From a virus: DNA of 42,525 nt. Positions 866 to 16,043 of the stretch are shown here, piece after piece (position 1 is the first letter of the stretch; each line of letters opens with the position of its first letter). Location of the stretch: positions 1 to 42,525 of IMG/VR virus record IMGVR_UViG_3300024518_002195; one strand, given 5' to 3'. The notes under the pieces are model-generated. The model was not told the origin of the DNA. It saw only the letters and a program-made list of their open reading frames with translations, and searched no databases. The position numbers and the translations under genes are program-made.

Positions 866-1780
866 TTATTTGATTTTTTTATCTTCGTCAACACGTTTAA
901 AGGGTTGAGTACCTTGATATAGATCGTCCCAGAAACGACCACAGTATTGATACTCGCCGACATGAGTAATGTAATCTTTAATATAAATATGTACTTTTCC
1001 ACCCATATCACTCCATCGTTGACAGAACCCAAAGTCTTCACCGTAATATCTTTTAGTCTTAGGATCATGCAATGTATCAAAAAGATTATAAGTATGGGGA
1101 GTTTTAACTTCTTCTCCATTAATAATTGTAGGTTGGAACACCTCTAATTCAGGGTAGTGTTTCATCATTTTTTCTAGTACTTCTCTTTTAATTAACATGC
1201 ATCCAGTCGGAGCATGCGTAACTTCTACTACTCCTTTCTTAGATTCAATGACTTTCTGGTTCTCTACTTTTAAAGGAAATGTAAAACCTGCTTTAGATAG
1301 GTCATCTTTATTAGTAACCGCTCTGTCTCTGTCATGGGTTCTGTTCCATATCTTGTCCCAACTAATAGTCTTCATGGGGTAAGGACATGCAATAAGATCC
1401 AAGTCTTTCTCTAGCATAGAGAAAATAGTTTTACTTTGAAAGTCTATATCTGAATCTATAAATAATAGATGAGTATATTTATCTGCGTGGTTTAACATTT
1501 CAGCTACACATAGATTTCTTCCCTGTGTAACTAAAGAAGATTTCATTAGAGTAAAACTAACTAACATCTTTTTCAAGAGACATTCTTGTTGAAATTTTAA
1601 AACTGCTTGGCAGTAGTGCATACTCACATCACTATGAACTGGAGTACAGACCATTACTTTATAAGGAGATTGACCCCCTATATTAATAGTAGTTACTGCG
1701 CCACTAGAGTTAGTATTGTTTTGTTTGATGGTTTGATAAGTATCCTCATTAAACCATATAGGCTCATTGGGCTTTCGCAC
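866..1780 (-). CDS. GT-A fold glycosyltransferase (GT2-like)
   Basis: Probable nucleotide-sugar-dependent glycosyltransferase of 304 residues. A beta-strand-like start (KVMVCTPVHSD, 41-51) is followed by a DxD-type metal/nucleotide-sugar motif in LLFIDSDID (105-113), a C-terminal YYGEDFGFCQRW (245-256) that matches the acceptor-side ED motif of GT-A enzymes, and a late His (H273) that could complete metal binding. No signal peptide or membrane segment is visible, so it should act in the cytoplasm. Its start overlaps the end of the upstream GT4 gene by 17 bases, so the two are translationally coupled. The acceptor is unknown; virion proteins, host envelope and DNA are all possible. Confidence 0.8.
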   Translation of the reverse strand: MRKPNEPIWFNEDTYQTIKQNNTNSSGAVTTINIGGQSPYKVMVCTPVHSDVSMHYCQAVLKFQQECLLKKMLVSFTLMKSSLVTQGRNLCVAEMLNHADKYTHLLFIDSDIDFQSKTIFSMLEKDLDLIACPYPMKTISWDKIWNRTHDRDRAVTNKDDLSKAGFTFPLKVENQKVIESKKGVVEVTHAPTGCMLIKREVLEKMMKHYPELEVFQPTIINGEEVKTPHTYNLFDTLHDPKTKRYYGEDFGFCQRWSDMGGKVHIYIKDYITHVGEYQYCGRFWDDLYQGTQPFKRVDEDKKIK

Positions 1781-2732
1781 TTATTGCTCCTTCTAAAAAT
1801 TTAGTCCACGTAGTACCTATCTTGCCCCATCCATAATAGATGTTAGCATAATGAGATTGTGATTCTAAATGATTTAAAACTTCATTTTCATGTAATTTAT
1901 TTGCTGTTTGTTCTATAGCAAAAGCAAACTTTTGAGCCATCACCCTATGATCATTTTCGTATGGAACATACAAAGGAAACTCGGCTCCTGTTTCATATAA
2001 CGCACCGAAGTCATTAACTATACAAAATATACCTGCGGCCATACATTCTAATAAAGAGATACAAAAAGTTTCTTCAAAGATAGATGGATATACATACATT
2101 TGATATTGTTCTAAATTGTCTTTAATATGTTCATTGGGTTGATAACCTATGTAATTAACATTAGGTAATTTTGTAGCCTGCAAATATAACTCTTGGTAAT
2201 CTTTATCTGTTTCATTAAAAAAGTGTTCTCCATAAACCCTTGTAGAAGAATACACATCTAAAGTTATTAAAGGATTCTTAACCAACTGCATGGCTCCCAA
2301 TAGAACTGAGAGTCCTCTCCAGGGTGTGTTATGATGAATTATTTTAATGGCTTGACCTTTTTTATATGCAGGTGCTCTTTGGATACCACTGATTCCATTC
2401 TTAATAACCACACATCTATGCGTGGGTATATCAAATTTTTTTCTAAACTGTTCATAGTTCCAATGACTATTGAAAACATACCAGTCATATTTATGGTGAT
2501 TACTTTTATCACTAAACCAGGGATTTAAATTAGGTTGGTCCCATGAATTTTTCTGCCATAGAATATTAACTTTATCCTTATGCAAAGGAACTCGTTCAGG
2601 CACAGATGTACAAATCTGTACTTCTTCCAATAATTTAAAATCTACATTTCTTTTTAAATAATCGAGCTGTAGTTCTGTTCCACCTCTAGGTGATTTTGGT
2701 CTTAACGGATCACTTTGATTTGTTATCTTCAT
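1764..2732 (-). CDS. GT4-family (GT-B fold) glycosyltransferase
   Basis: Retaining glycosyltransferase of 322 residues. The donor-binding half carries the EX7E signature (E221 and E229 in FEETFCISLLECMAAG) typical of family GT4, preceded by VYPSIF. KNGI (111-114) and the HHNTPWRG segment (133-140) fit the GT-B interdomain region. The N-terminal domain is short, and GGTE at 17-20 matches the N-terminal glycine-rich donor loop. The start overlaps the end of the small upstream gene by 23 bases. Together with the downstream GT-A enzyme it forms a two-gene sugar-transfer pair in the late operon. Confidence 0.85.
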   Translation of the reverse strand: MKITNQSDPLRPKSPRGGTELQLDYLKRNVDFKLLEEVQICTSVPERVPLHKDKVNILWQKNSWDQPNLNPWFSDKSNHHKYDWYVFNSHWNYEQFRKKFDIPTHRCVVIKNGISGIQRAPAYKKGQAIKIIHHNTPWRGLSVLLGAMQLVKNPLITLDVYSSTRVYGEHFFNETDKDYQELYLQATKLPNVNYIGYQPNEHIKDNLEQYQMYVYPSIFEETFCISLLECMAAGIFCIVNDFGALYETGAEFPLYVPYENDHRVMAQKFAFAIEQTANKLHENEVLNHLESQSHYANIYYGWGKIGTTWTKFLEGAISAKAQ

Positions 2733-3393: not shown

Positions 3394-4583
3394 TACGATA
3401 TCAATGAGTATGCCGATGCTGGTAAAGAAAGAGGTGTTCCTTTCTTCTCTTGATTTTGTTTATCCAGTTTCATTAACTGTTGTACATTCTCTAAACCGAA
3501 ACCAGTTTGGTTATAAGAATTGAATGCGTTCTTTAATTTTTTATCTAGGATACTACCCTCTGTAAAAGCTAATTGGCCTTCTAGCTCCTCTGTGTCTTGT
3601 AGATTACTTTGGTTGTTTCCTATCCCGTAAATTATACTTTGATCCGGATTTATATTATATTTTTTATCAAACCATTGTTTTCCTTTTTGCATACCCCAAG
3701 GTAGAAGTCCCATTGGACCCTGATCCTTAAATAACTTTATTAGACTCAGGGCGTTTTTACCTTTGTCAAATGTTTCAATTACATCAGAAATATCTAGGGT
3801 TGGACCTTGACCTTGATTATTTCCTCCACCCACATTTCCTGCGTGTAAATTTCCAGATGTAGTTGAGCCATGATGGAGAGCGCCTAGTCCTCTTGCTTGA
3901 GCTGCTCCCGGCGACATACCTAGTCCTTGGTCTTGATCTTGATGAGGATTACCTTGAGCATAACCTAATCTCATTATTCCACCTTGTGCCATAGGATCTC
4001 CAGCAGTTGCTATAGATTCTTTACTTCCTGGATGCTGATAGCCTACTCCCGTATTATTTCCTTGATTGCCTTGAGCAATTTTTGAAATGTTTGCTTTCTT
4101 AGTTTTCATTGCATCACTATAATGATCTATGTCTCCATATTTCTTCATCCACTTCTGTGCCATCTCTTGTGGAGTCGTAGAACCAAATGCAGAACTTCCT
4201 GGTGCATTCATTCCTTGGAATGGTCCGCTTGTCATTTGATATGGATTGTTTTGTGCAAATGATATGTTACCACCACCTACACCATAATTTTGTAAAAACT
4301 TTGTATTGGCATCAATATCAGCTTGGCTTAAATTCCCTGCATTGCCTTGCATAAATCTCATAAATTTTTCTAAAGGATTTTCTTCCTCCACCTCTTCTTC
4401 ATTTACTCTATAAACAGGGCCATCATCAACAGGGCGAATAGAATCTCCTTGAGCATAACCTAGTCTAGTAATTCCACCTGTATTAGATTCGATTCTACTT
4501 CCATAAGTATCGGTCCAATCACGAGCTATCTCTGGCTCGTTGGCCCATAAATATCTTCTTTGTTTTTCTGACTGAAATGGCAT
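3393..4583 (-). CDS. Gly/Gln-rich protein with repeated RLGYAQG motif
   Basis: Product of 396 residues, function unknown. The N-terminus (MPFQSEKQRRYLWANEPEIA) is a compact basic/aromatic segment. It is followed by a long low-complexity region rich in Gly, Asn and Gln. The motif GGI-(T/M)-RLGYAQG occurs twice (about residues 36-45 and 206-215). The C-terminal quarter is more ordered and helical. An in-frame ATG further upstream would lie inside the preceding gene; ATG 4583 forms a TAATG junction with that gene and was chosen. Probably an internal or tail-associated virion protein, judged from position only. Confidence 0.65.
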   Translation of the reverse strand: MPFQSEKQRRYLWANEPEIARDWTDTYGSRIESNTGGITRLGYAQGDSIRPVDDGPVYRVNEEEVEEENPLEKFMRFMQGNAGNLSQADIDANTKFLQNYGVGGGNISFAQNNPYQMTSGPFQGMNAPGSSAFGSTTPQEMAQKWMKKYGDIDHYSDAMKTKKANISKIAQGNQGNNTGVGYQHPGSKESIATAGDPMAQGGIMRLGYAQGNPHQDQDQGLGMSPGAAQARGLGALHHGSTTSGNLHAGNVGGGNNQGQGPTLDISDVIETFDKGKNALSLIKLFKDQGPMGLLPWGMQKGKQWFDKKYNINPDQSIIYGIGNNQSNLQDTEELEGQLAFTEGSILDKKLKNAFNSYNQTGFGLENVQQLMKLDKQNQEKKGTPLSLPASAYSLIS

Positions 4584-6541
4584 TATCTTCTTCCGTCCGC
4601 TTGTGCGTCTAATCTTAATGTTCCATATCGCCAAGTTTCACCTGTGGCGTCGTTAGCAATATTGATTGAAACCAATCTTCCTCTGGCTCTAGTATTTACT
4701 TTAGCAGTAGAAGAGGTAACTGTAAAGGGACCTAATGAAGAACTTACAGCTGTGTCATCAGGGTAAGAACTTACATATAAAGTCATCTTCGCATTTCCAG
4801 ATAAGTATTTAAAATCAGGGATAATTCGACTGACGGACATAAAGTATTCTCCATCTCCTCTAAAGTCTACGACCCCTGTGGGTGTTCCCATCATACTTTT
4901 TTTAGAAGTAATATCATAATCACCAGACCTAATGAAGGCATTAATAGAAGTAGTGCCTGAACTATTGACCTGATCAGTACCTGTTTCTTGTGCATAGTAC
5001 ATGCTGGATCCCGCCAAAGCTGTCGCTCCATAAATAGGATAGGTAGGAGTAGCTGTAGCATCATATTCTGTAGCATGTGGAAGATTGAAAATGGTAGCAT
5101 CAATGTAACTTGTTCTAGCTAATGAGGAAACAGTCCATATATTCTCTCCATAATTATAAGTAACGGATCTATCAATTTGTGTAGAGCCAGATTTTGGATA
5201 GAACCAGTTTATCTCAGTGAACAAACTATTGTGACTTGCAGCTACTATTAAATTGGAATCATAATTAATTCCTAAATTAGTTCCAGTGCTCTCAAATACA
5301 AAATCTTCTACTAAACAATCAATTGTTTTAACAGTACCATCATATCTATAAAATCCTCCAGCGTCTCCCATCCAATAGACTGCTCCGTCGGCTGCGATAG
5401 CTGCATTGGGTCCGATGCATCCGCAATTAGTTCCAACTTGTCTAAGACTAAATGTGTATGGTGGACCTACATATTGAGTTACATAAGCTGCTGTATCTGT
5501 TAAAATTAAAACATAGTCCTTACCGGCTATTGCGGCTCTGATTGTGTTACCAGAATCTAGTCGGAAGGTTCCAGCTGTATTAGTAGCTGTGGGTAAATAA
5601 GTATTTAAATCTTCTTGATTAGAAAATCTTACAAACATAGGGTCTTGAGTTGCGGGTGTACCAATAGTAGTCTCAGTTCCTAAGTGAAATAAATGTCTGT
5701 CTCTATCTGACACTAAGGTCATAAGAGAGGCTGTCGGATTATTCGACGTTAAATAACTTGTTGTAGCTGTAGAAGCTCTAATGGTTCTAGCATTAGCAGC
5801 GCCTGCGTTCCATGTGAAAGTTTTACCATTACGAATGGTAGCAATTAATACTTGTCCATAGTTGTCTAGGCTCCAGAGGCCTGGATCTAGAACTACATCA
5901 CTTGTTGTACGTTCCGTACCCCAAGTAGAATCACCCCATAGATAGGTACCCCAGCCATAACCATAAGTTTGAAAAGTAGGTCCTACAGTTTCGTAGGGAA
6001 GAATGCTTGCTGAACCGGTCCCTGTGGTAGTTCCACCAGATACCGTTGGCATTTCAATAGCGAATGTATTAGTAGCAATGGCAGATATTTCAAAGCCATT
6101 ATCACTAAAATCAGTGGTCGCCCATCCAGAACCTGTCGGGACGGTAACTGTTTCAAAAGTTATATAATCTCCAGCGGATAAACCGTGAGAAGTTTTATTA
6201 ACAGTCACAGTTGCACTCCCTGAAGAAGCTGTGAAAGTAGCTGAAGTTAAAGCTGTTTTTAAAGGGGTAATATCAAATACTTGGTCCGCGTAATACACGA
6301 ACAAGACTTTATTAGTTCCAATAGCTACATATTTTTCACCAGCTAAGCTTGTGAATGCGTGTTGAGATCTAGCGACTCCCGGTAATGTATAAGTGGGGTT
6401 AGTTAATTGTTGCCATCCACCTATTTTCTCAGGTAATCCATATCTAAATCTAATAAAATCTCCGTCTACCCACTGACCTTCAGCGCCAGACTCGGTGGCT
6501 TGTTTATTAAATCCTGGTACAAATTTTAGTTTCTGTAGCAT
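4583..6541 (-). CDS. Tail nozzle/propeller-type structural protein
   Basis: Large structural protein of 652 residues. The start (MLQKLKFVPGFNKQ, then DGDFIRFRYGLPEKIGGWQQ) resembles podoviral tail-hub proteins that begin with a 'binding-site then frame' segment before a repeated beta-propeller-like body. The body contains recurring short blades such as VAIGTNKVLFVYY and VLILTDTAAYVTQY, and is rich in Thr, Ser and Tyr. P22 gp10 and T7 gp12 do this job at the portal-tail interface; the equivalence here is inferred. The 35-base gap before it (6542-6576) is the only break with the oxygenase cassette upstream, so the cassette sits inside the tail operon. Confidence 0.7.
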   Translation of the reverse strand: MLQKLKFVPGFNKQATESGAEGQWVDGDFIRFRYGLPEKIGGWQQLTNPTYTLPGVARSQHAFTSLAGEKYVAIGTNKVLFVYYADQVFDITPLKTALTSATFTASSGSATVTVNKTSHGLSAGDYITFETVTVPTGSGWATTDFSDNGFEISAIATNTFAIEMPTVSGGTTTGTGSASILPYETVGPTFQTYGYGWGTYLWGDSTWGTERTTSDVVLDPGLWSLDNYGQVLIATIRNGKTFTWNAGAANARTIRASTATTSYLTSNNPTASLMTLVSDRDRHLFHLGTETTIGTPATQDPMFVRFSNQEDLNTYLPTATNTAGTFRLDSGNTIRAAIAGKDYVLILTDTAAYVTQYVGPPYTFSLRQVGTNCGCIGPNAAIAADGAVYWMGDAGGFYRYDGTVKTIDCLVEDFVFESTGTNLGINYDSNLIVAASHNSLFTEINWFYPKSGSTQIDRSVTYNYGENIWTVSSLARTSYIDATIFNLPHATEYDATATPTYPIYGATALAGSSMYYAQETGTDQVNSSGTTSINAFIRSGDYDITSKKSMMGTPTGVVDFRGDGEYFMSVSRIIPDFKYLSGNAKMTLYVSSYPDDTAVSSSLGPFTVTSSTAKVNTRARGRLVSINIANDATGETWRYGTLRLDAQADGRR

Positions 6542-6575: not shown

Positions 6576-7094
6576 CTAGACGTAGTTTATATTGATTAAA
6601 AACCGAGCTTTTGCATCGGTGCAGGTGCTCCCTGAATGCTCTATTGTCGCCGGAAAACTTAACATCCGGTTCTCTTTATTTACCACACTTTCCCCAATGC
6701 CAACAGCTTTTTCTCCTGTTTTTAAAAAAGTCTCAGCATTAGTAGTATTTAAAAAGAATATATTAGTTGTTATTCCCTCAGGCTTTTTTACATCCGTATG
6801 AAAAGGAAACGATAATTTTTCTGGAGTATATGGATTGCAATTGGCCTTAACCTTAACTAATGTTTTTACATTTAATTTATCAAAGATGGGTTGTAAGAGT
6901 TTAATTAAATAACTCATCTCTTTCCCATCCTTATAGAAGATATGAGTAAATTGATAGTAATCTAATCTAGACTGTTCATAAGCATCATTATTAACCTTAA
7001 ATGAATTATAGTACCAGGGAAAAGTATTACTCATCATAACCTGTTGAAGTTTTAAAAGCTCATCCTCTGGAAGAAAATTATCTCTAAGTTTCAT
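6576..7094 (-). CDS. 2OG-Fe(II) oxygenase-like protein
   Basis: Putative 2-oxoglutarate- and Fe(II)-dependent dioxygenase of 172 residues. The double-stranded beta-helix signature is complete: FHTD gives the HxD pair (H99, D101), IEHSG gives the distal His (H153), and R164 in AKARFLI is placed to bind the 2OG carboxylate. NRMLSFPA is the usual strand before the distal His. The start at 7094 makes a TGATG junction with the upstream oxygenase; a longer reading from 7121 would enter that gene. It is the last gene of the cassette. Substrate unknown. Confidence 0.8.
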   Translation of the reverse strand: MKLRDNFLPEDELLKLQQVMMSNTFPWYYNSFKVNNDAYEQSRLDYYQFTHIFYKDGKEMSYLIKLLQPIFDKLNVKTLVKVKANCNPYTPEKLSFPFHTDVKKPEGITTNIFFLNTTNAETFLKTGEKAVGIGESVVNKENRMLSFPATIEHSGSTCTDAKARFLININYV

Positions 7095-7642
7095 CAATAT
7101 GCCCACGAGACAAAAGTACAACGTGTGCCCTTTGTTATCTCATTAACATGATGAGGATACACAAAAGAAGAAGGAAATAATAAAATATCTCCTTGCTCCA
7201 TCTTGAAAGTATGCGGGCCGAGACAGAATTCTCCTCCTTCATAGTCATTATTTAAAGCGCCCACTATAGATAAAATAGGAATGCCCCTGTCTACCCCATC
7301 AAAGATATCATGGATATGATCGAAGTGTCTCCTCATCATACTGCCAGTAGGATATCTATTAAATCTTATTGGATTTATTTTATGAATAATTTTTTGTTTA
7401 AGCTTATCTTGATACTCATCTAAAGCCTGAATAACAAAAGGAGATAACTGATCGTGGAATTCTTTGTCTGCAGGAACCACTTCTAATTCTTTGGAATCAT
7501 GCGATCCAGTATTTCCACTGACAGTATTATACCAGGTATGGGTAGTCCACTTAAAATCAGGAAATGCATTCATGATTCTTACACATAAACCTTCCGGTAT
7601 CAGTTTCTCTTTATATATAAAGTCTTCTAGTCTAGGTATCAA
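7094..7642 (-). CDS. Prolyl-4-hydroxylase-type 2OG-Fe(II) oxygenase
   Basis: This is the clearest prolyl-hydroxylase-like member of the cassette, 182 residues. It has HFDH with the HxD pair at H106 and D108, then YEGGEFCLG, the strand GDILLFPSS, the distal His in YPHHVNEI (H164 or H165), and TKGTRCTFVSW, where K171 is expected to bind 2OG. This order is standard for P4H domains that hydroxylate proline or related residues in peptides. The protein is about the length of a bare catalytic domain. It overlaps the upstream gene by 11 bases. Confidence 0.88.
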   Translation of the reverse strand: MIPRLEDFIYKEKLIPEGLCVRIMNAFPDFKWTTHTWYNTVSGNTGSHDSKELEVVPADKEFHDQLSPFVIQALDEYQDKLKQKIIHKINPIRFNRYPTGSMMRRHFDHIHDIFDGVDRGIPILSIVGALNNDYEGGEFCLGPHTFKMEQGDILLFPSSFVYPHHVNEITKGTRCTFVSWAY

Positions 7643-8270
7643 TGGGCTGATCCGAATCTAAAGATATATTCCCAGCTACAGTAATTCTATCTTTAGTAGA
7701 AGTATAAAAAGGATATACCGTATGTTTTAAAGCTGCAGGAAAGAATAACATTCTTCCTTCTGCCTCCTTATCTAAATGATAATAATGAGGATTAAGACGT
7801 CCCAACATATCCATATAATAAAAAGAAAAAGACGAGGCTAAACGATTATTAGAATCCTTTATAAAAGGAAGCTCGTGCTCTTTTCTAAAGTCTGTAGGTA
7901 TCTTCATAAATACCACAAAGGAAAAAACCCCTTTATGATCATGCACTGGATTAAACTCATATCGTTTTTGAAAATTACACCATAATCTTTCTAAAATGTA
8001 GTTATGATTCTTAGTTAAAATAGAAGGGACAACAGTATGAGGAGAGAATGCTTTTTGATATTCTAGAATAGCTGGACCTAGAGTAGAGTTAAAAAACCAG
8101 TCATCTTTATCCGGCATTAAATGGGAACGAGTGATGTTACCAGCTAACTCTTTATTATATCTCTTTTTCTGAGCTGTAGCGATATAACCATTTAAACCTT
8201 TGATGACATTGTCCTCGAGTTGTATTTCTAACCAACCAGAATTAGGGGGAGATACTTTTTTATATTTCAT
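7632..8270 (-). CDS. 2OG-Fe(II) oxygenase-like protein
   Basis: Product of 212 residues with the cupin-like oxygenase layout. NPVHDHKG supplies the proximal ligands (H110 with D111 or H112), LFFPAALKHTVYPF supplies the distal His (H183), and DRITVAGNIS has the 2OG-binding Arg (R195). A 30-residue insertion between the two ligand motifs contains an Arg- and Tyr-rich stretch. The HxH spacing differs from the classical HxD, so the metal geometry may be unusual. It overlaps both neighbours by 11 bases. Confidence 0.75.
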   Translation of the reverse strand: MKYKKVSPPNSGWLEIQLEDNVIKGLNGYIATAQKKRYNKELAGNITRSHLMPDKDDWFFNSTLGPAILEYQKAFSPHTVVPSILTKNHNYILERLWCNFQKRYEFNPVHDHKGVFSFVVFMKIPTDFRKEHELPFIKDSNNRLASSFSFYYMDMLGRLNPHYYHLDKEAEGRMLFFPAALKHTVYPFYTSTKDRITVAGNISLDSDQPIDT

Positions 8271-8796
8271 AGTTCCAAAAGTTAGAGTTAAAAGAAATAA
8301 CGATTTTAGTTTTAACCCCCATGTTAATAGGAGACTGATGAATAATATTTCCAGGGAAGGTTAATACTTGTCCCTCTTCCATTGGAATAGCATAGGTCTG
8401 ATTAAGAATGGGATCGTATAATTGAGTTTCTGTTTGTGGTCCTCCGTCTTGTATGTAATAAACATTAGCCCAACTACTCTCTGGGTGTACGTGCCAGCTA
8501 TGATAATCTCCTGGTTCATATTTTTGAAACCAACCATTGGTTATATTCCATTGAGTTAGTTTTAATTTTTTAGATATGGCATCCATATGAGGGGGAACTA
8601 ATTTATAAAAATAATCTAAATATTTTCTTTTAGCTTTTTTAGATACTTTCCAATCTGATTGACTAATTAGTTCCTCAGAATTTTGACGGACAGGGGCGTT
8701 CATCTCTTCTATATACTTAAGTATTTTTTTATTATGTTTTTTATAATCCTTTATTGCGGATAAAAACATATAGGTTTGTATGGCCTTATGTTTCAT
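8260..8796 (-). CDS. 2OG-Fe(II) oxygenase, TIGR02466/2OG-FeII_Oxy_5-like
   Basis: Product of 178 residues. The core WHVHPESSWANVYYI contains the HxHP ligand motif (H102, H104) that I associate with the family of putative 2OG-Fe(II) oxygenases named TIGR02466 (Pfam 2OG-FeII_Oxy_5). QVLTFPGNIIHQSP gives the distal His (H153). The basic residue that should bind 2OG is Lys (K162 or K164) instead of the usual Arg. The N-terminal 80 residues are helical and lysine-rich. It starts in an ATGA overlap with the gene before it. Confidence 0.78.
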   Translation of the reverse strand: MKHKAIQTYMFLSAIKDYKKHNKKILKYIEEMNAPVRQNSEELISQSDWKVSKKAKRKYLDYFYKLVPPHMDAISKKLKLTQWNITNGWFQKYEPGDYHSWHVHPESSWANVYYIQDGGPQTETQLYDPILNQTYAIPMEEGQVLTFPGNIIHQSPINMGVKTKIVISFNSNFWNYEI

Positions 8797-9413
8797 ATTA
8801 CTAAATGAGTCTTTCTAAAATCCGTTCCAAGAGAGCCTCTCATAAAAGTATTGAAGGATAGGGATACTCGTTCCTGTTTAGACTTATTAGGTTCTACAGA
8901 ATGAGGTAAATAAGAAGGAAAGAATAAAGCAGAATACTGAGGAGGCTCTATGCTAAAGTCACTACAGTTCATCATATCTATTTCTTTAAATTCGTATTCA
9001 ATGCCGCCTGTAAGAGCCTGGGGTTTATCAAAAAATATCTTAGGGTTGTTATCTGTAATATAATATGTCCCTGAAAATAAACTATTGGCGTGCCAGTGTC
9101 GATGATGAAAACTACCTGGTGGGTTATAATTAAACCAGCTTTGAGTAATTACAAATTTAGTGTGGTCTTTTATCTTTAATAATTCATGAGTATAGCTATT
9201 CAACATCCCCTGCATAGCTTGTTTCATCTTAACCAATTCTTTAGACTCTAAGGCATAGCCATTGAGAGAACTATAATTATTACCTGTATTAGGACGTCTC
9301 TTTAACTCATGTATAAACTTTAGTTCTTTTTTAGTAGGTATATAAATTTTATTTGCCTGTAGAACAGGGGTTGGAAATAATGGATAAACTCCATTATCTT
9401 TAGGGTCTCTCAT
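8793..9413 (-). CDS. 2OG-Fe(II) oxygenase, TIGR02466/2OG-FeII_Oxy_5-like
   Basis: Product of 206 residues and the best match in the cassette to the TIGR02466 pattern: SWFNYNPPGSFHHRHWH (H106, H108), then LFSGTYYI, then ALFFPSYLPHSVEPN with distal His H171, and ERVSLSFNTF with Arg R182. This motif order is common in putative oxygenases of marine T4-like and other phages. The start overlaps the stop of the halogenase-like gene as TAATG; the end overlaps the next gene by 4 bases. Confidence 0.82.
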   Translation of the reverse strand: MRDPKDNGVYPLFPTPVLQANKIYIPTKKELKFIHELKRRPNTGNNYSSLNGYALESKELVKMKQAMQGMLNSYTHELLKIKDHTKFVITQSWFNYNPPGSFHHRHWHANSLFSGTYYITDNNPKIFFDKPQALTGGIEYEFKEIDMMNCSDFSIEPPQYSALFFPSYLPHSVEPNKSKQERVSLSFNTFMRGSLGTDFRKTHLVI

Positions 9414-10900
9414 TAATATATTGTCCTTTCAGTGTTCTTTAGGTTTTTGGTATGAATTAATTTAAGCATTTCTTTATGAGATATTCTTAAACAGCTCTCC
9501 TCCCAGTCTTTCGTCTTCTTTAATTCCTTACTTATCCAAACCCTTTGACCGTAGGAGTATAATCTTGCCTCCTCTTCATAGCGTGCTTTGGTATATAAGT
9601 CTAGTCCTGCAATTAAATTAATGAAAGAAAGAGGTCCAAACATCTTTAACCGATGAGTAAAATCCCTGTCTCTAGGTAATCTAACTTGCCAACGAGGTAA
9701 CATTTCTTTTAAAAAATCTGTTTGTTTTATTTCTTTTTTCCAAAAAGGTTCTTTTCTTTGAGTAAGGTAATGCATTTGAACATAAGATAAAATATTGTCC
9801 ATTAAATCATTGTAGTCTTCATTAACAGATTTCTTATCTTTGCTGGGCAATGCATTAATAAGACAATTAGTTTGTAATAAACTAAGCATTACATTTAAAC
9901 CTTCTAGGGGTTCTAGCAAAGAACTACTTTGACCTATCAGTATTATATTACCATTCCACATCTTATCAAAACAACCTACAGGATATTTATTGGACTTAAC
10001 TTTGTATTCAATTGGATGTTTATATATTTTCTCTAATACCTTATGGATATCAGGTCCATTCTTAGATTGTAATTCATAATTATGAGTAATACCGTTTGCC
10101 GTTCTACCATACAAAGGAGCACGCCACAGGTAACCAATATCTAACGCCTTATAAAAAGTAAATAAATTATATTCTTCCATTGCAGGGGTTTCAAAATAAA
10201 TATGACTTGAAGCTGGAGTATGTGCTTCCCAACTCTTCCATTTAAAATCTATAAAAGAAGATAGAAGCCTACGTGGACCAGTATTATCAATCCACCAGTC
10301 AGACGTATAATAATTTCCATCTGTGCCATGTAGTCTTTTAATTTGCTGATGATTATCTAATTCTACTCGTGTGTATATAGCTTTATCAATGTATACTCCA
10401 TTCAGTTCACAAATTTCCAACAGATAGTCTCTAAACTTAGCTGTATCAAATGTATAAGACATGGGGAAATTATCTTGTATCAATGGAATATCTCCATCAT
10501 AAAAATGATTAGGAGCTAACCATTTATTTTTAAGTTGTTTCCAACCTAAGATATATCCCTGGAAACAATGGTATTCATTATGGGAATAGAATAAAGGATA
10601 AGAACCTAAGTGATTTGGAAAATCTATTTTACCGAACCCACTGTAATATGAGCCAGCAGTATAAGTAGCATCTGTCTTGATCATGAAGTCATGCTCATTG
10701 AGATTAAGTCTATTTAAAAATTGTTCTTTAAACATGTAACCGGAACTTTGAGATGGAGTACGACATTCCCAATCCTCAAACCCATGTATCACTTTAATCA
10801 GCTTAGTAGGAAAATTGTGCTTCAATAATAAAGCAGTCATTAACCCATCTATTTCAGTTCCTACAATAGTTATTATATCTGTATCATCGTCTGTTCTCAT
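9413..10900 (-). CDS. Tryptophan-halogenase-family flavoprotein lacking the catalytic lysine
   Basis: FAD-dependent protein of 495 residues, full length for the flavin-dependent tryptophan halogenase family. Matches to PrnA recalled from memory: IGQSSSLLEPLE (322-333) against IGLSSCFLEPLE, with the catalytic Glu kept at E333; GYLWRAPL (256-263) against the WxWxIP motif; WIDNTGPRRLL (203-213); and YVQMHYLTQRKEPFW (373-387). Differences: the N-terminal FAD loop is VGTEIDG instead of GGGTAG; the GVGEAT segment is not visible; and the residue matching the PrnA catalytic Lys79 is Thr81 (TDATYTAG). Halogenation is therefore doubtful; FAD-dependent oxidation or a reductase-coupled role is possible. 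ATG 10900 was chosen because it overlaps the preceding TAA. Confidence 0.85.
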   Translation of the reverse strand: MRTDDDTDIITIVGTEIDGLMTALLLKHNFPTKLIKVIHGFEDWECRTPSQSSGYMFKEQFLNRLNLNEHDFMIKTDATYTAGSYYSGFGKIDFPNHLGSYPLFYSHNEYHCFQGYILGWKQLKNKWLAPNHFYDGDIPLIQDNFPMSYTFDTAKFRDYLLEICELNGVYIDKAIYTRVELDNHQQIKRLHGTDGNYYTSDWWIDNTGPRRLLSSFIDFKWKSWEAHTPASSHIYFETPAMEEYNLFTFYKALDIGYLWRAPLYGRTANGITHNYELQSKNGPDIHKVLEKIYKHPIEYKVKSNKYPVGCFDKMWNGNIILIGQSSSLLEPLEGLNVMLSLLQTNCLINALPSKDKKSVNEDYNDLMDNILSYVQMHYLTQRKEPFWKKEIKQTDFLKEMLPRWQVRLPRDRDFTHRLKMFGPLSFINLIAGLDLYTKARYEEEARLYSYGQRVWISKELKKTKDWEESCLRISHKEMLKLIHTKNLKNTERTIY

Positions 10901-11622
10901 TAGTATGATGCCTTCCAACTCCCTAAGTTACTAACCCTATTTTTTTCAGGGATAGGAAATGAACCCGCTTTAATTTCGGAAAAGAAAAAAGTTTGTATTA
11001 TTCTATTTTTCTTTATTGAACCATATCCATTGGACGCATGAAAGTGAGATGAGTCAAATACAATAGCTCTGTTTGGAATAAAAGGTACTTCTAAAATTAA
11101 ATCATAAGAAGAATTATGTTCGGCTAACATTTTATTATACAACTTAGGATCAACTTTTTCTCCACCATATAGTTTTTCTTTTATATCCATATGGTGAAAG
11201 GTGTCTGGAGCGGGTGATTTTTTAAATTTAAAAAAGCTTGTTCCTTCATCTTGATCTCCTTGAATATAAAATAGACAACTTAACATATTGTCATCATCTG
11301 AATGGACAAAGCCATGCTTATCATATTCATTTCCATAGGGAACGATCTTTTCAAATTTAGTTAAACACTTATAAGGGGTATCATGTATTTGAAAGCGGTT
11401 ATAGAATAGAGATAAAATTTTCTCTGTAGAGTATCTAAAATAATCTGGTTGAATTTCATGTAGGGGTTTTGTAACTGACCCAGGCATTGTATAATTTTTA
11501 TGCCATGTATTATTAAAAACATAGTGTCTTTCTTTTTGGTCATAAGGAAGACTTTTAGCTAGCTTTAATACATAATCAAAATCATCAAAAAAGTTATCTA
11601 CAATGGTAAGTGGAAAATACAT
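10900..11622 (-). CDS. 2OG-Fe(II) oxygenase-like protein, DUF6445-like
   Basis: Product of 240 residues. GFVHSDDDN carries the HxD pair (H107, D109), IVFDSSHFHASNGYG the distal His (H193 or H195), and KKNRIIQTFFF the 2OG-binding Arg (R207). The 40-residue insertion between HxD and the distal His contains DTFHHMD. Its size and motif order resemble the DUF6445 group, members of which I recall near tryptophan halogenase genes in bacteria; here too the halogenase-like gene is immediately downstream. The link is by memory of the family and not by a search. Confidence 0.78.
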   Translation of the reverse strand: MYFPLTIVDNFFDDFDYVLKLAKSLPYDQKERHYVFNNTWHKNYTMPGSVTKPLHEIQPDYFRYSTEKILSLFYNRFQIHDTPYKCLTKFEKIVPYGNEYDKHGFVHSDDDNMLSCLFYIQGDQDEGTSFFKFKKSPAPDTFHHMDIKEKLYGGEKVDPKLYNKMLAEHNSSYDLILEVPFIPNRAIVFDSSHFHASNGYGSIKKNRIIQTFFFSEIKAGSFPIPEKNRVSNLGSWKASY

Positions 11623-12212
11623 TAATAGCTATCTCCCCATGGTTTATCGAAGGACCAGTTCCACGCTAGTGTAACTCTTTTTCCAGGGATATTTACGGGA
11701 TCAACCCAGTGCTGAACATACGAAGGAAAGGTAATAACTATACCTCTTTGGGCACTTAATTGCCTCGTATAATTAGCGCTCTTATCAGTAGAATCTATAT
11801 TTATTATAGAGTCCCCAAAATATAAAACACTGGCAAAATCTGTACCTAAGTGGTCATGTCTTCTTACAAAGTCTTTCTTGGTTAGAATACTTCCCCACGA
11901 ATTAACTATGTTACATTTATACATCCTAGTTTTTTTATTCATGTCCTCATAAAACAAACTGTCTTGAGACCATCTAAAAAACATACTCTCTAAGAATAGT
12001 TTAAAATCAGGATCACTATTAAAAAAGTTAAAGGCTGTCATCTTCCCTTGAACATTAGTTAAATAATTATTATTTTTGTCAGGTTGTTTCTCAATACCTG
12101 TAATAATTTTTTTCTCTAAAGCTTTAAGCAGTTCTTCTTCATGAGCCATGTTGAGCTCCGTAATAGCCATATTCAGGGTGTAATTAATTCTAGTTACTTT
12201 CGAACGAAACAT
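11622..12212 (-). CDS. 2OG-Fe(II) oxygenase-like protein, first gene of the cassette
   Basis: Product of 196 residues. RRHDHLG supplies the proximal ligands (H119 with D120 or H121), VITFPSYVQHWVDP the distal His (H168), and GKRVTLAWNWSF the 2OG-binding Arg (R179), in the TIGR02466-like order. Its ribosome binding site (AAGGA) lies in the 3' arm of the 12211-12232 hairpin and the start codon follows directly, so translation of the first cassette gene may be controlled by RNA structure. Internal ATGs at 12170 and 12149 are possible alternative starts without a better binding site. Confidence 0.78.
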   Translation of the reverse strand: MFRSKVTRINYTLNMAITELNMAHEEELLKALEKKIITGIEKQPDKNNNYLTNVQGKMTAFNFFNSDPDFKLFLESMFFRWSQDSLFYEDMNKKTRMYKCNIVNSWGSILTKKDFVRRHDHLGTDFASVLYFGDSIINIDSTDKSANYTRQLSAQRGIVITFPSYVQHWVDPVNIPGKRVTLAWNWSFDKPWGDSY

Positions 12213-12256: not shown

Positions 12257-12646
12257 TTAAAACTGTGGGTCGGTAAGAACCCAAGATAAAGTATCTTCAT
12301 CCCAACCGTATGACTGACCATCAGTTGGATAAGGAGTAGGTGCGTCCCACTGCCATGTAGTAGTATTTAACGTGTAACTAGGCCACGCAAAAGGTGGTTC
12401 TTTTGGTTTAATAAGTTTATCGTTTGCACGATCATAAGTTCCACCAACTCCAGGTTCATTAACTCTAGAGTCTTTGTATATTATATATAAATTTGTATCA
12501 GTTGAAGGTCCGTAGATTTCTAATATACGTGCAGAACATTTAGCGTCACTTGGAGTGCCACCATCGTCTACATCAGATGATTTTAATCCTATGACGTTTA
12601 TAATGTTATCACTACCATCTAAAACTGCTATGGGTGTTGTTGCCAT
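12257..12646 (-). CDS. Tail-fibre accessory protein (WDE-type C-terminus)
   Basis: Product of 129 residues. The C-terminal half (PPFAWPSYTL, then WQWDAPTPYPTDG, then YGWDEDTLSWV) repeats a W-rich pattern found in small proteins next to phage tail fibres. No catalytic motif is visible. The start overlaps the stop of the glycine-rich adhesin-like gene as TAATG, which ties it to that protein, perhaps as a chaperone or an attached tip subunit; this is inference. It is the last structural gene before the oxygenase cassette. Confidence 0.65.
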   Translation of the reverse strand: MATTPIAVLDGSDNIINVIGLKSSDVDDGGTPSDAKCSARILEIYGPSTDTNLYIIYKDSRVNEPGVGGTYDRANDKLIKPKEPPFAWPSYTLNTTTWQWDAPTPYPTDGQSYGWDEDTLSWVLTDPQF

Positions 12647-13512
12647 TATCCCTCCGAATCAAATCTAACGATTACTATTCCACTACCGCCATTACTTCCA
12701 CTAGGAGAGTCTGCTGATCCAGCGCCGCCTCCACCTGTATTGGCTGGTGCAGGAGAAATTCCTCCACCGAATCCAGTAGAGCCTGGCATTCCACCGCCTT
12801 GGCCACCAGCTCCGCCACCACCGGTTTGGTTTCCACCACCACCGCCTCCAGCGTAATAAACTTGTGAAGCGGCTACTAATATATCGTTTTGTCTTCCTAT
12901 ACCACCAGGGCCAGGAGTTCCTCCTGCACCGCCAGCTCCGCCGCCACCGCCAGCTCTTGCCATGCTGCCGCCACCGCCGACATTTCCATAACCGATTCCG
13001 GCTCCGGAATTTGAATTTTGTGCAGTTGCTGATCCGCCTCCTCTTGCGCCTCCGCCTGAAGAGCCTCCAGCTTTTCCTTGTGGTCCTGGTCCCATTCCTG
13101 GTCCACCTGAACCTCCGCCACCACCGATAGCTGTAACTACGCCACCTGTAGGTGCTGATCCTGGAGCAGACCAAATTGATTGTCCACCATTTATGCCACC
13201 CGGACCTGAGCCACCAGTTCCAACTGTCACTGCGTAATTTGTTCCTACTCCTAATCCTGAACTTGATCCTTCTTGATATCCTCCTGCGCCACCGCCGCCG
13301 CCGTCTCCGCCGCCGTCAGCACCACCGCCTCCTCCAGAGACAGTTAAAAATTCTACGGGTAATGTTGCTACAGAACCTCCTGTAAATGCGAATTGTCCGC
13401 CTGCTAAAAAAGTGTGAATGCGATAAGTTCCGTCTTCAGTCATATTACCGCCAGTTGCTGCTGCCGGTCCTCCGCCTCCAGAACCGAATCCTAATACTTG
13501 ATATCCAAACAT
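12646..13512 (-). CDS. Glycine-rich tail adhesin-like protein
   Basis: Product of 288 residues, extremely rich in glycine with GGGG, GGPG and GPGP runs from about 50 to 280 and a short ordered N-terminus (MFGYQVLGFGSGGG, then TYRIHTFLAGGQFAF) and C-terminus (SGIVIVRFD). The composition is that of glycine-rich adhesins with stacked polyglycine II helices, such as the receptor-binding tips of some T-even-like phages, and of Pfam glycine-rich domains on fibre ends. Pro in Gly-Pro and Gly-Pro-Gly steps makes it a candidate substrate for the prolyl-hydroxylase-like enzymes encoded just downstream; that is inference. Confidence 0.75.
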   Translation of the reverse strand: MFGYQVLGFGSGGGGPAAATGGNMTEDGTYRIHTFLAGGQFAFTGGSVATLPVEFLTVSGGGGGADGGGDGGGGGAGGYQEGSSSGLGVGTNYAVTVGTGGSGPGGINGGQSIWSAPGSAPTGGVVTAIGGGGGSGGPGMGPGPQGKAGGSSGGGARGGGSATAQNSNSGAGIGYGNVGGGGSMARAGGGGGAGGAGGTPGPGGIGRQNDILVAASQVYYAGGGGGGNQTGGGGAGGQGGGMPGSTGFGGGISPAPANTGGGGAGSADSPSGSNGGSGIVIVRFDSEG

Positions 13513-13529: not shown

Positions 13530-14738
13530 TTATGCGTCGTTAGGTGCATTTGTAGTGAAGTGTAGTTTGATTCCTATAAGTCTGGCGTCTGCCGAAAACG
13601 TATCACCCGCTGCATCTGCATCTCTGTAAAAATTAAAAAAGCATTGTTCGCCTGCAGCTGGAGAGCCAGCGATTGTCATTGCTGTACTTTCAGATGAGAC
13701 GTCTAAAAAATCTGCTGTACCTGTGTGAGCATCCGTCACAGTAATTGCTGTTCCGAAAGCTGTATCAATATCTGCTCCATTAGCAATAGCTACTCCTTTT
13801 AATCCCCAAATACAGTCACCTGTGTTAGTAGAATTACCTGTCCAGAAAACCTGGTAGGTAACAGTACCTAGATTCCAAGATTTTGGAAGGGCTACTGTAA
13901 ATTGAGCGTTTTCTTCTGTTGCAGCATCAAAATCGATTGTGTTAATTTCTGGAGTTCCTGCAGTTAACTCAGTTAAAGCTATTGCATTCGCACCCGCTGT
14001 AGTCGTAGGATACATAGTAGTTGCCGGTACCCATATAGTTTCTTTACCAGAAACACCCATAGCTACACCACCTGATGTAACTTGACCTGTTCCTTTTGGA
14101 ATTAAATCTATAGAAATATCTGTATCATCACCAGTTGCAGAAAGTGACGGTTCGCCGCCTGCTGCTTTGTTGGTAATAGTAAATTCATTAACTGCTGTTC
14201 CTGTTTTAACAAATTTAAGGTATTCGTTATTGGAATCATCTTGAATAGAGTTTCCACTATCCATTATAATATCTTGTGCATTACAATCTAAATCTGCTGA
14301 AAGTTGTGGTGAGTAGTCAGATGATAAATCTGTAAATGCTGTATCTACAATGTTAGTACCATCAGAATATACTTCTTTAATACCTTTGTCCGTAGCTAAC
14401 CAAGTTACTCCAGTTCCTGAAGTAGTCTTAACTGTTACAGCATGCGAACCAGTTGTAGAGTTTTGAATAATGTAAGTTTTTTCAACAGAATCTGGAACAA
14501 CTACGTTAATCGCCCCTACAATAGTTCCTGTTAATTTTAAAATTTGATTTTTACCATTAGAAACTGCACCATTAGTGAACGTTAAAGTTGCACCAGATGT
14601 AACTGCAATCGATTGATATCCACCGATAGCTTGTTCTAAGATTAATAAGTTTGTGTTAGTTATTTGTCCCCATGTTCCTGAGTTTTCCCCAGTCGCTTGG
14701 ACAGTTAGTTTTAAACTAGCTGATGTTGAATTCGCCAT
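13530..14738 (-). CDS. Tail fibre/structural protein
   Basis: Product of 402 residues, rich in Thr, Ser, Ala and Gly with alternating hydrophobics. The start (MANSTSASLKLTVQATGENS, then GTWGQITNTNLLILEQAIGG) is a pattern that I associate with tail fibre proteins of marine podo- and myoviruses. The middle (about 150-220) repeats short NSIQDDSNNEYLKF-type segments used in fibre shafts, and the C-terminal part has a beta-sandwich-like composition, possibly a receptor-facing domain. It precedes the glycine-rich adhesin-like gene by 17 bases. Confidence 0.7.
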   Translation of the reverse strand: MANSTSASLKLTVQATGENSGTWGQITNTNLLILEQAIGGYQSIAVTSGATLTFTNGAVSNGKNQILKLTGTIVGAINVVVPDSVEKTYIIQNSTTGSHAVTVKTTSGTGVTWLATDKGIKEVYSDGTNIVDTAFTDLSSDYSPQLSADLDCNAQDIIMDSGNSIQDDSNNEYLKFVKTGTAVNEFTITNKAAGGEPSLSATGDDTDISIDLIPKGTGQVTSGGVAMGVSGKETIWVPATTMYPTTTAGANAIALTELTAGTPEINTIDFDAATEENAQFTVALPKSWNLGTVTYQVFWTGNSTNTGDCIWGLKGVAIANGADIDTAFGTAITVTDAHTGTADFLDVSSESTAMTIAGSPAAGEQCFFNFYRDADAAGDTFSADARLIGIKLHFTTNAPNDA

Positions 14739-14778: not shown

Positions 14779-14799
14779 AATAAGTGTCAAACACTTATT
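14779..14799 (-). terminator. Hairpin after the WG-repeat gene
   Basis: Perfect 8-bp inverted repeat (AATAAGTG / CACTTATT) with a 5-base loop immediately after the stop codon of the WG-repeat gene on the minus strand, followed by AT-rich sequence without a clean T tract. It may be a weak terminator or an RNA-processing stem between two tail genes. Confidence 0.4.
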
Positions 14800-16043
14800 T
14801 AAGCAGCGCTAGTATCGACTTCCTGCCATCCTGGCGGGTCTACCGGTGCTGTGCCGGTTGGGACTTCGTTCCAAATCAATACATTTGTAGCTGTACCAAG
14901 CGCGAATGTCAAGGTATTTCCAGTTAAATCTACCTTAGCATTTCCACTAGTATCTTCATCACCTTCTTGCATTACTAAAGCAAAACCAGTGATATCAGGG
15001 TGTGTATTGGCGTCGGCTACAACGGTGCCAAGACCCATAGCTAAACTAAATGTAAAGTTAGGATCTGCAAAATAAACACCATTACCCCATTTAGATTCAC
15101 CCCACTTACCATTGCCCCAGCCCATAGCTGTTTCAATAGTTACATTTGCATCACCGGTAATATCATAAGAACTACCTGGTGTTAAATTAGCAGCCATTGC
15201 TTGACCAATAGGATTTGCATCAGGACCAGGATCAGCTCCGCTAAAGTTTTCCTGCATCGCCATAACAAGAGTATTAACTTGTTGGTTACCATAAACACCG
15301 TAACCCCAATTAGAATTACCCCATGTAACAGCGGATGTGGCCGACACTTCGGCTATAGTAATATTGTCTGCGACTGCTGTACCTAAAGCAGCGGTCATCG
15401 CAAAACCAGTTGGACTCACATACTCAGGATCAAAACTTAGGTTCATGGTCATCGCAATACCAGTAGGTTCTGCGACAAATGATGCGTAAGCAATAGCAGC
15501 GCCAGTTGTTACTGTCGCCGTTCCTGCAGATGAAAGAGTTAAAGAACTATCTCCGTAAGTAGAAATACCTGCTCCACCTTCGGCCACCACCATCGCAATA
15601 CCAGTAACGTCTACTGCTAATAAAGATTGACCCCATGCTTCAATGCCCCAAGGATCAGAACCCCAACCAATGTTAACTTCAGCAGTTACGGAAACACTGT
15701 TAAGTGCAGTGCTCATAGCTTGACCTGTTAAGAATACATCGCCGGCAATTCCCCAAGCCACGCTTCCCCAAGTGGATCTACCCCACCCTACATTAATTTC
15801 TGTTGTGATTGTTTCTTCACTAAGAACCATTGGCAAAGAAAAGCCAGTTGGTATTTCTGTAATGTTAGAATAATAAACGCCGTAAGATAGCTCGCCCCAG
15901 GCGTATCTTCCCCATCCTGTTGTAGAAAAAGATGCGGGAGTACCTAAGTTAGCTGTTAATGCTATTCCGCTAGGAATAATTAAATTAACTTCTGTGTTCC
16001 AAGAATTGCTGCCCCACGTAAATTGACCCCAAGTGGTTGCCAT
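14799..16043 (-). CDS. WG-repeat structural protein
   Basis: Product of 414 residues built from about six modules, each with a WGxxxWG core (for example GWGRSTWGSVAWG at 86-98 and GWGSDPWGIEAWG at 126-138). Modules are joined by segments that end in a small hydrophobic strand such as PSGIALTANLG or PTGFAMTAALG. Spacing between modules is about 40 residues in the first half and longer in the second. The regular aromatic repeat suggests a fibrous or solenoid virion part. I do not know a function for it. It lies between the fibre and neck genes. Confidence 0.7.
   Translation of the reverse strand: MATTWGQFTWGSNSWNTEVNLIIPSGIALTANLGTPASFSTTGWGRYAWGELSYGVYYSNITEIPTGFSLPMVLSEETITTEINVGWGRSTWGSVAWGIAGDVFLTGQAMSTALNSVSVTAEVNIGWGSDPWGIEAWGQSLLAVDVTGIAMVVAEGGAGISTYGDSSLTLSSAGTATVTTGAAIAYASFVAEPTGIAMTMNLSFDPEYVSPTGFAMTAALGTAVADNITIAEVSATSAVTWGNSNWGYGVYGNQQVNTLVMAMQENFSGADPGPDANPIGQAMAANLTPGSSYDITGDANVTIETAMGWGNGKWGESKWGNGVYFADPNFTFSLAMGLGTVVADANTHPDITGFALVMQEGDEDTSGNAKVDLTGNTLTFALGTATNVLIWNEVPTGTAPVDPPGWQEVDTSAA

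Follow-up and report, generated by a model that had tools for sequence, protein, structure and literature searches.

In an ocean virus, a gene whose product looks like the distal receptor-binding tip of a tail fibre is accompanied by a codirectional cassette of tightly spaced genes that encodes seven 2-oxoglutarate/Fe(II)-dependent (2OG-Fe(II)) oxygenases and one tryptophan-halogenase homologue. The interval that harbors these genes is a swappable receptor island, and the pairing of tip and oxygenases recurs across many ocean phages. The best explanation we can offer, one in which our confidence falls a little short of even, is that the island represents a module built around the receptor-binding protein, its oxygenases serving to hydroxylate the tip or the proteins that partner it; this explanation builds on the observed gene order and gene coupling, intact iron-ligand residues, fold, recurrence, non-redundancy of the enzymes, and one co-transfer. 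The DNA studied here, referred to as the window, is the entire 42,525-nucleotide stretch of the IMG/VR record IMGVR_UViG_3300024518_002195. Its terminase is 82% identical to that of the Pelagibacter phage HTVC027P, which identifies the window as a fragment of the genome of an HTVC023P-type pelagiphage, a virus infecting SAR11-type ocean bacteria; no nucleotide-level relatives of the window were found among GenBank phages. The genes relevant to the following discussion are:

14799 to 16043, minus strand: u414, protein of the virion type with WG repeats (GWGxxxWG), encoded ahead of the receptor module, recognized by sequence and relatives
13530 to 14738, minus strand: F402, tail-fibre stalk-like protein with a conserved N-terminus (phrog_31104), anchor gene in 92 loci
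12646 to 13512, minus strand: putative Gly_rich_2 receptor-binding tip ("adhesin"), assigned by Pfam, AlphaFold2 and Foldseek
12257 to 12646, minus strand: u129 (phrog_7759), small partner gene, 129 aa, found directly after most Gly-rich tips
11622 to 12212, minus strand: Oa, 2OG-Fe(II) oxygenase (PF13759), triad H119xH121..H168
10900 to 11622, minus strand: DUF6445 2OG-type oxygenase, triad H107xD109..H195, entering the 2OG superfamily in iterated HMMs
9413 to 10918, minus strand: homologue of flavin-dependent tryptophan halogenases (PF04820), catalytic Lys, GxGxxG and WxWxIP lost
8793 to 9413, minus strand: Ob, 2OG-Fe(II) oxygenase (PF13759), triad H106xH108..H171
8260 to 8796, minus strand: Oc, 2OG-Fe(II) oxygenase (PF13759), HxH..H
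7632 to 8270, minus strand: Od, 2OG-Fe(II) oxygenase (PF13759), HxH..H
7094 to 7642, minus strand: Oe, 2OG-Fe(II) oxygenase (PF13640, P4H/PKHD-like), HxD..H
6576 to 7121, minus strand: Of, 2OG-type oxygenase (phrog_274, labelled "endonuclease V"), HxD..H
4583 to 6541, minus strand: S652, conserved virion structural protein that closes the island (phrog_3287, E 3e-79), anchor of the comparative set
1764 to 2732, minus strand: glycosyltransferase (GT1; PF00534, E 5e-12), apparently a conserved backbone gene, not island-specific and present with both tip types

Reading from the tip, the same-strand order is u129, Oa, DUF6445, the halogenase homologue, Ob, Oc, Od, Oe, Of and S652. The order given in the initial annotation, in which a single small gene separates the adhesin from the oxygenase cassette, is thus correct, with all members on the same strand, and it generalizes beyond the window. 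Intergenic gaps from the tip through the cassette range only from -28 to +44 nt, so that the whole segment looks like one coupled transcription unit.

The minus-strand open reading frame at 12646-13512 was confirmed as a real gene; it encodes a 288-amino-acid protein with a glycine content of 39.6%. It passes the Pfam model Gly_rich_2 (PF21722; 25.7 bits against a curated cut-off of 24.3, E 1.4e-5), and its AlphaFold model, computed from 25 sequences, reaches a pTM of 0.80. Searches with this model by Foldseek retrieved the Bxb1 tail tip (9d93; E 3e-5) and the Pam3 fibre (7ypx; E 6e-4), with TM scores of only 0.37-0.47; judged by these E-values and at such low TM scores, the tip is predicted to adopt the packed polyglycine-strand fold of Pam3 and S16. 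Host recognition has been assigned to the Gly-rich domain of the Pam3 fibre (PMC9608196). The adhesin-like character proposed in the initial annotation is therefore backed by both PF21722 and a Pam3/Bxb1-like fold, and the product of 12646-13512 looks like a receptor-binding tip at the distal end of the tail fibre. Purifying selection acts on all genes compared, with the tip being the least constrained among them (dN/dS 0.40, window versus L093). The protein encoded by u129, for which neither a homologue in the PDB nor a Pfam match was found, is possibly a fibre chaperone or partner. Homologues of u414 are hypervariable and, in most relatives, immediately precede the stalk gene; the GWGxxxWG motif that is repeated in u414 is also found in S652 (YGWGTYLWGDSTWG).

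When eight enzymes of the window were used as independent HMM seeds, all searches converged on one set of about 600 open reading frames. The predicted iron-ligand residues HxD/E/H..H are intact in 535 of the 586 aligned oxygenases (91%), with 172 of the 586 carrying a conserved variant, HxH..H, instead of HxD/E..H. In the window, HxD..H ligands are present in DUF6445, Oe and Of, and in Og, which lies outside the cassette, while Oa to Od possess HxH..H. The three histidines are invariant in 18 diverged relatives of Ob, which suggests a three-His iron site across the whole PF13759 subfamily. The window oxygenases are under purifying selection (dN/dS 0.14-0.32). The eighth 2OG oxygenase of the window (PF13640; 37266-38045, plus strand) is found outside the receptor locus, adjoining the terminase small subunit.

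An AlphaFold model of Ob (pLDDT 89.6) displays a double-stranded beta-helix. Its best structural match is 3bvc (E 7e-11); 3bvc/2rg4 are followed by HIF-PHD2 and bacterial prolyl hydroxylases (P. putida P4H), among other 2OG enzymes. A prolyl/protein-hydroxylase fold is thus supported for the cassette enzymes by the one member, Ob, that was modelled. At the level of amino acid sequence, Oe alone among the seven members of the cassette is of the PF13640/P4H type, and its solved relatives are PiuC-type PKHD chains rather than P4Hs; Oe matches no characterized prolyl 4-hydroxylase by sequence, while a family of relatives designated c1 does match P4Hs. The earlier description of these genes as prolyl-hydroxylase-like consequently holds for the fold of Ob but, as regards sequence, not beyond Oe. 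No DUF6445 protein was found in cellular genomes. Three PHROG labels fall on 2OG-type oxygenases of the window: "DNA endonuclease V" (phrog_274; 6576-7121), "minor coat protein" (phrog_1644; 10900-11622) and "DNA endonuclease" (phrog_2297; 7094-7642). These three labels are probably misleading.

The initial annotation did not mention the halogenase homologue located inside the cassette. The protein encoded at 9413-10918 is recognized by the Pfam Trp_halogenase model (E 8e-43). A Thr residue replaces the Lys that corresponds to K79 of VirX1, an active iodinase with Lys79 (PMC8407142), and the sequences GTEIDG and YLWRAP stand in for GxGxxG and WxWxIP. Loss of the catalytic Lys is confined to the window and four close relatives (L090-L093); it is kept in the other 25 aligned viral homologues. 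With a dN/dS of 0.16, the gene is under purifying selection, and its product is probably a conserved non-halogenase derivative, as judged from these sequence features. Across 92 intervals, halogenase homologues occur in 10 loci with a Gly-rich tip and in none without. Trp, Tyr and His were considered as halogenase targets in the tip; Trp is missing from five of the 10 tips in halogenase loci, the window tip contains a single His, and all three residues were rejected. Gly-rich tips in halogenase loci do contain more His than others (1.27 versus 0.51%; p 0.002 before any correction for 20 residues), a rise that the window tip does not share.

The comparison set consists of 92 distinct complete intervals between F402 and S652. 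A Gly-rich tip is encoded in 61 of them; the other 31 mostly possess tail-collar (PF07484) tips. Collar-type tips are often tandem paralogues that differ mainly in one variable segment (L049, L039, L064, L072), as if several tips were stored. At least one oxygenase is present in 80 of the 92 intervals, the number ranging from 0 to 11. The co-occurrence of adhesin and oxygenase genes does recur (55 of 61 Gly-rich loci, with six Gly-rich tips having none), but oxygenases are about as common in loci lacking such a tip (25 of 31); the link is hence with the receptor-binding locus and not with Gly-Pro. Their orientation differs between the two layouts: oxygenases are on the strand of the tip in 51 of the 55 Gly-rich loci, and mostly on the opposite one in the absence of a Gly-rich tip (21 of 25). 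Three genomes were read over 47-50 kb, namely those of the isolates HTVC027P and HTVC023P and that of 023Pt, which stems from a metagenome; all 2OG genes found there (3, 5 and 5, respectively) reside in receptor loci.

Within islands, none of 792 oxygenase pairs falls into the same 45% cluster, compared with a mean of about 42 and a minimum of 28 in shuffled data. This non-redundancy supports distinct substrates for the individual enzymes, the alternative being that close duplicates are lost by recombination between paralogues. One clear modular co-transfer of a tip with its oxygenase block was observed: in L145 and L176 the tips (77%), the u129 proteins (91%) and five oxygenases in the same order (82-87%) are far more similar than the flanking stalk and S652 proteins (42-47% identical). 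Other pairs of loci have three or four oxygenases in common and different tips; the blocks thus often move without the same tip. When the phage backbone is controlled for, the correlation between oxygenase repertoire and tip sequence is weak and of borderline significance (partial Mantel r 0.17, p 0.053).

A related arrangement is found in cyanophages. In Syn10, the source of VirX1, a tail fibre gene is followed by genes for Gly-rich proteins, two halogenases and a run of 2OG genes; P-TIM40 and Sf-FP1 exhibit the same order, and in S-H38 it is looser, with all genes within a few kb. The halogenase of S-SRM01 adjoins an annotated adhesin without oxygenases, and those of S-RIM44, S-PM2 and S-B64 have no such setting. 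P-SSM2 possesses 25 oxygenases that are scattered and not near Gly-rich genes. Whole-genome tests for clustering of 2OG genes near Gly-rich genes in five cyanophages gave p values of 0.04, 0.07, 0.12, 0.28 and 0.99. The association of receptor genes with oxygenases in several cyanomyoviruses is accordingly recurrent, not universal.

The Gly-Pro steps of the tip had been put forward as the substrate of the oxygenases. The window tip contains six Gly-Pro dipeptides against 5.5 expected from its composition, with no Gly-X-Y or triplet periodicity, and in 61 related tips Gly-Pro lies below expectation (median z -1.04), the number of oxygenases being unrelated to any excess; Gly-Pro or Gly-X-Y repeats of the type used by P4Hs are likewise not found beside the cassette. 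The Gly-Pro argument has to be abandoned. The proline content of the tips does correlate with oxygenase number over all loci (rho 0.51), but among loci with at least two oxygenases the correlation vanishes (rho 0.07), which marks the trend as a clade effect caused by a Pro-poor group with at most one oxygenase. A more specific lead is a loop, G-N-x-P-P-x-S-P-x-Q-G, present in the tips of many relatives. Its diproline form (PPxSPxQG) is accompanied by both the oxygenase family c0 and the P4H-like c1 in 24 of 24 complete islands (21 discovery, three new), compared with c0 in two of eight complete islands with a single-Pro form, L188 (loop PSTVPSQG) included. The split was noticed in the discovery set and later put to the test on new loci, where the association was present in three of three diproline complete islands against none of two single-Pro ones, all small numbers. 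Associations of oxygenase clusters with tip motifs are significant over all loci, and mostly not within islands of at least three oxygenases; large islands frequently include c0 and c1 in any case, so that the loop association may reflect shared descent, and we regard it as a suggestive lead on proline. The window tip lacks the conserved loop and the phage lacks both c0 and c1, so that the substrate of its own enzymes cannot be read from this association.

Two glycosyltransferases had also been placed in the tip operon. The gene at 1764-2732, further down the same strand past three virion-type or unknown genes, does have Pfam support, but the second one (866-1780) has none and corresponds to phrog_1574, of unknown function. 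All 17 of the island-bearing loci that were examined have homologues of both at the same place, whichever the tip type, as does one of two loci without oxygenases; the two look like backbone genes.

The family c0 includes proteins known under another name. HTVC023P gp67 and its 023Pt counterpart, annotated as "ferrochelatase" (phrog_2954), belong to c0 (E 4e-98 and 9e-98), and neither has a Pfam ferrochelatase match. Against a target cleared of c0 and c1 members, the c0 profile aligned to the other oxygenases over the HxD motif with a probability of 98.5%. The pelagiphage "ferrochelatases" of phrog_2954 hence seem to belong to this 2OG oxygenase family too, and the published pairing of a 2OG oxygenase with a ferrochelatase (PMC9599517, PMC11561400) probably consists of two oxygenases. 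Such phrog_2954 genes are located at L008:33402-34022 and L007:34439-35095. The "ferrochelatase" phrog_3531 may be a fusion, its N-terminal half being matched by c0-type and its C-terminal half by c1-type proteins.

We envision an exchangeable receptor module in which the stalk, the tip and the partner gene would be joined by 2OG-Fe(II) oxygenases, a set private to each phage and free of redundancy among its members. These enzymes would hydroxylate side chains of the tip or partner proteins during the assembly of progeny virions, and different oxygenase sets would then lend different chemistry to the receptor-binding surface, even where the underlying polyglycine or collar scaffold is the same. 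We infer both that the receptor-binding protein is the substrate and which of its residues might be modified; if one hypothesis is to be singled out, it is still that the tip is hydroxylated. As a bolder proposal, which we put forward with reserve, the islands may embody a combinatorial post-translational code, in which per-phage sets of hydroxylases, some with halogenases, decorate the common scaffold, specificity stems from the enzyme repertoire as well as from the protein sequence, and the module travels between phages. Several observations count against the module, among them the six Gly-rich tips without oxygenases, the weak correlation of repertoire and tip, the oxygenase blocks that move without the same tip, the absence of the loop, c0 and c1 from the window, and the scatter in P-SSM2; moreover, beside tips that are not Gly-rich the oxygenases lie on the opposite strand and could be expressed independently of the tip. 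A search of the open-access literature found nothing relevant on the hydroxylation of phage tips, and the accessible parts of the literature on HTVC027P state no timing for the expression of its oxygenases.

The oxygenases might instead modify the host surface (a receptor glycan, a lipid or an outer-membrane protein) and thereby block superinfection or the wasteful adsorption of progeny; their genes would then adjoin the tip because neither the tip nor the matching receptor modification could be exchanged without the other. This proposal accounts just as well for the linkage to the receptor locus and for the co-transfer, the opposite strand beside collar tips would allow separate, earlier expression, and a glycosyltransferase is encoded nearby; we nevertheless deem it unlikely, given that the Gly-rich layout has the oxygenases embedded in, and overlapping with, a structural-gene operon and that the nearest characterized folds of the modelled enzyme are protein and proline hydroxylases. 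The view that the oxygenases serve metabolism as auxiliary metabolic genes, by processing small molecules of the host or by depleting 2-oxoglutarate, and reside where they do merely because receptor loci are recombination hot spots, follows published readings for cyanophages and seasonal pelagiphages, as far as the accessible portions of these reports go (PMC3037559, PMC11561400, PMC9599517), and draws on the hot-spot character of metaviromic islands (from the available part of PMC3909814) and on the 25 scattered oxygenases of P-SSM2. Up to 11 non-redundant enzymes per interval without any close paralogue pair would, however, be unexpected for interchangeable metabolic genes; their orientation follows the tip type, and in isolates they are located near-exclusively in receptor loci, all of which makes a purely metabolic role rather improbable in our eyes.

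The scheme originally proposed, taken literally, in which Gly-Pro steps are prolyl-hydroxylated and two downstream glycosyltransferases then add sugars, could still point to the existence of the P4H-like c1 in this phage group and to the PPxSPxQG loop conserved in many tips. With Gly-Pro not enriched, the window devoid of loop, c0 and c1, the glycosyltransferase homologues belonging to the backbone, and oxygenases equally common without Gly-rich tips, this sequence of events is not indicated for the window phage, and we hold it to be very doubtful. Still harder to credit is a modification of phage DNA bases by TET/JBP-like or base-oxidation chemistry: phrog_274 and phrog_2297 are named as "endonucleases", the accessible part of PMC9599517 reports genes for DNA hypermodification elsewhere in the phage group, and c0 has a sub-threshold TET-like match (E 0.11), but the cassette yields no TET/JBP Pfam match, it is located among tail genes, and the proteins labelled as endonucleases carry 2OG-type domains.

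Marine phages very often encode 2OG oxygenases. Should their arrays act on receptor-binding proteins, as the module that we favor would have it, this would explain their high number, their mutual difference and the rapid variation of the host-binding surface by a small phage; VirX1, characterized in vitro, would also gain a candidate natural context.

HTVC023P-type pelagiphages have been described by Wittmers et al. (2022; PMC9599517, accessible portion) to possess eight non-orthologous 2OG genes, often near "ferrochelatases". These clusters stem from the same phage group and contain the same kind of genes as the window; the portion in question counts them among the auxiliary metabolic genes and makes no connection to receptor tips, and our reading differs in this respect. 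Fe(II)-oxygenase genes have also been noted in the hypervariable metaviromic islands of marine phages, with "host recognition" as the inferred function; unlike the present analysis, the available text (PMC3909814) describes no array structure, non-redundancy or tip pairing. The P4Hs of anthrax, PBCV-1 and P. putida, and PHD2, share their fold with Ob and are related in sequence to the c1 family of relatives. In comparison with known P4Hs, four of the seven cassette enzymes have HxH rather than HxD, a collagen-like substrate is missing, and the window lacks c1. S16 gp38, Pam3 gp24 and the Bxb1 tail tip resemble the window tip in combining Gly-rich motifs with variable tips, and the position of the window gene after a stalk gene and before a small partner gene is that of other polyglycine-tip systems. 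In contrast to S16/Pam3/Bxb1-type systems, u129 has no detectable homology to any solved chaperone, and the Pam3 paper describes no oxygenase array beside the tip, whereas the window tip has one. VirX1 keeps Lys79, while the window homologue has lost this residue and two other motifs; the Syn10 locus of VirX1 nevertheless shares with the window Gly-rich proteins, halogenase-type gene(s) and a 2OG array, all in a row.
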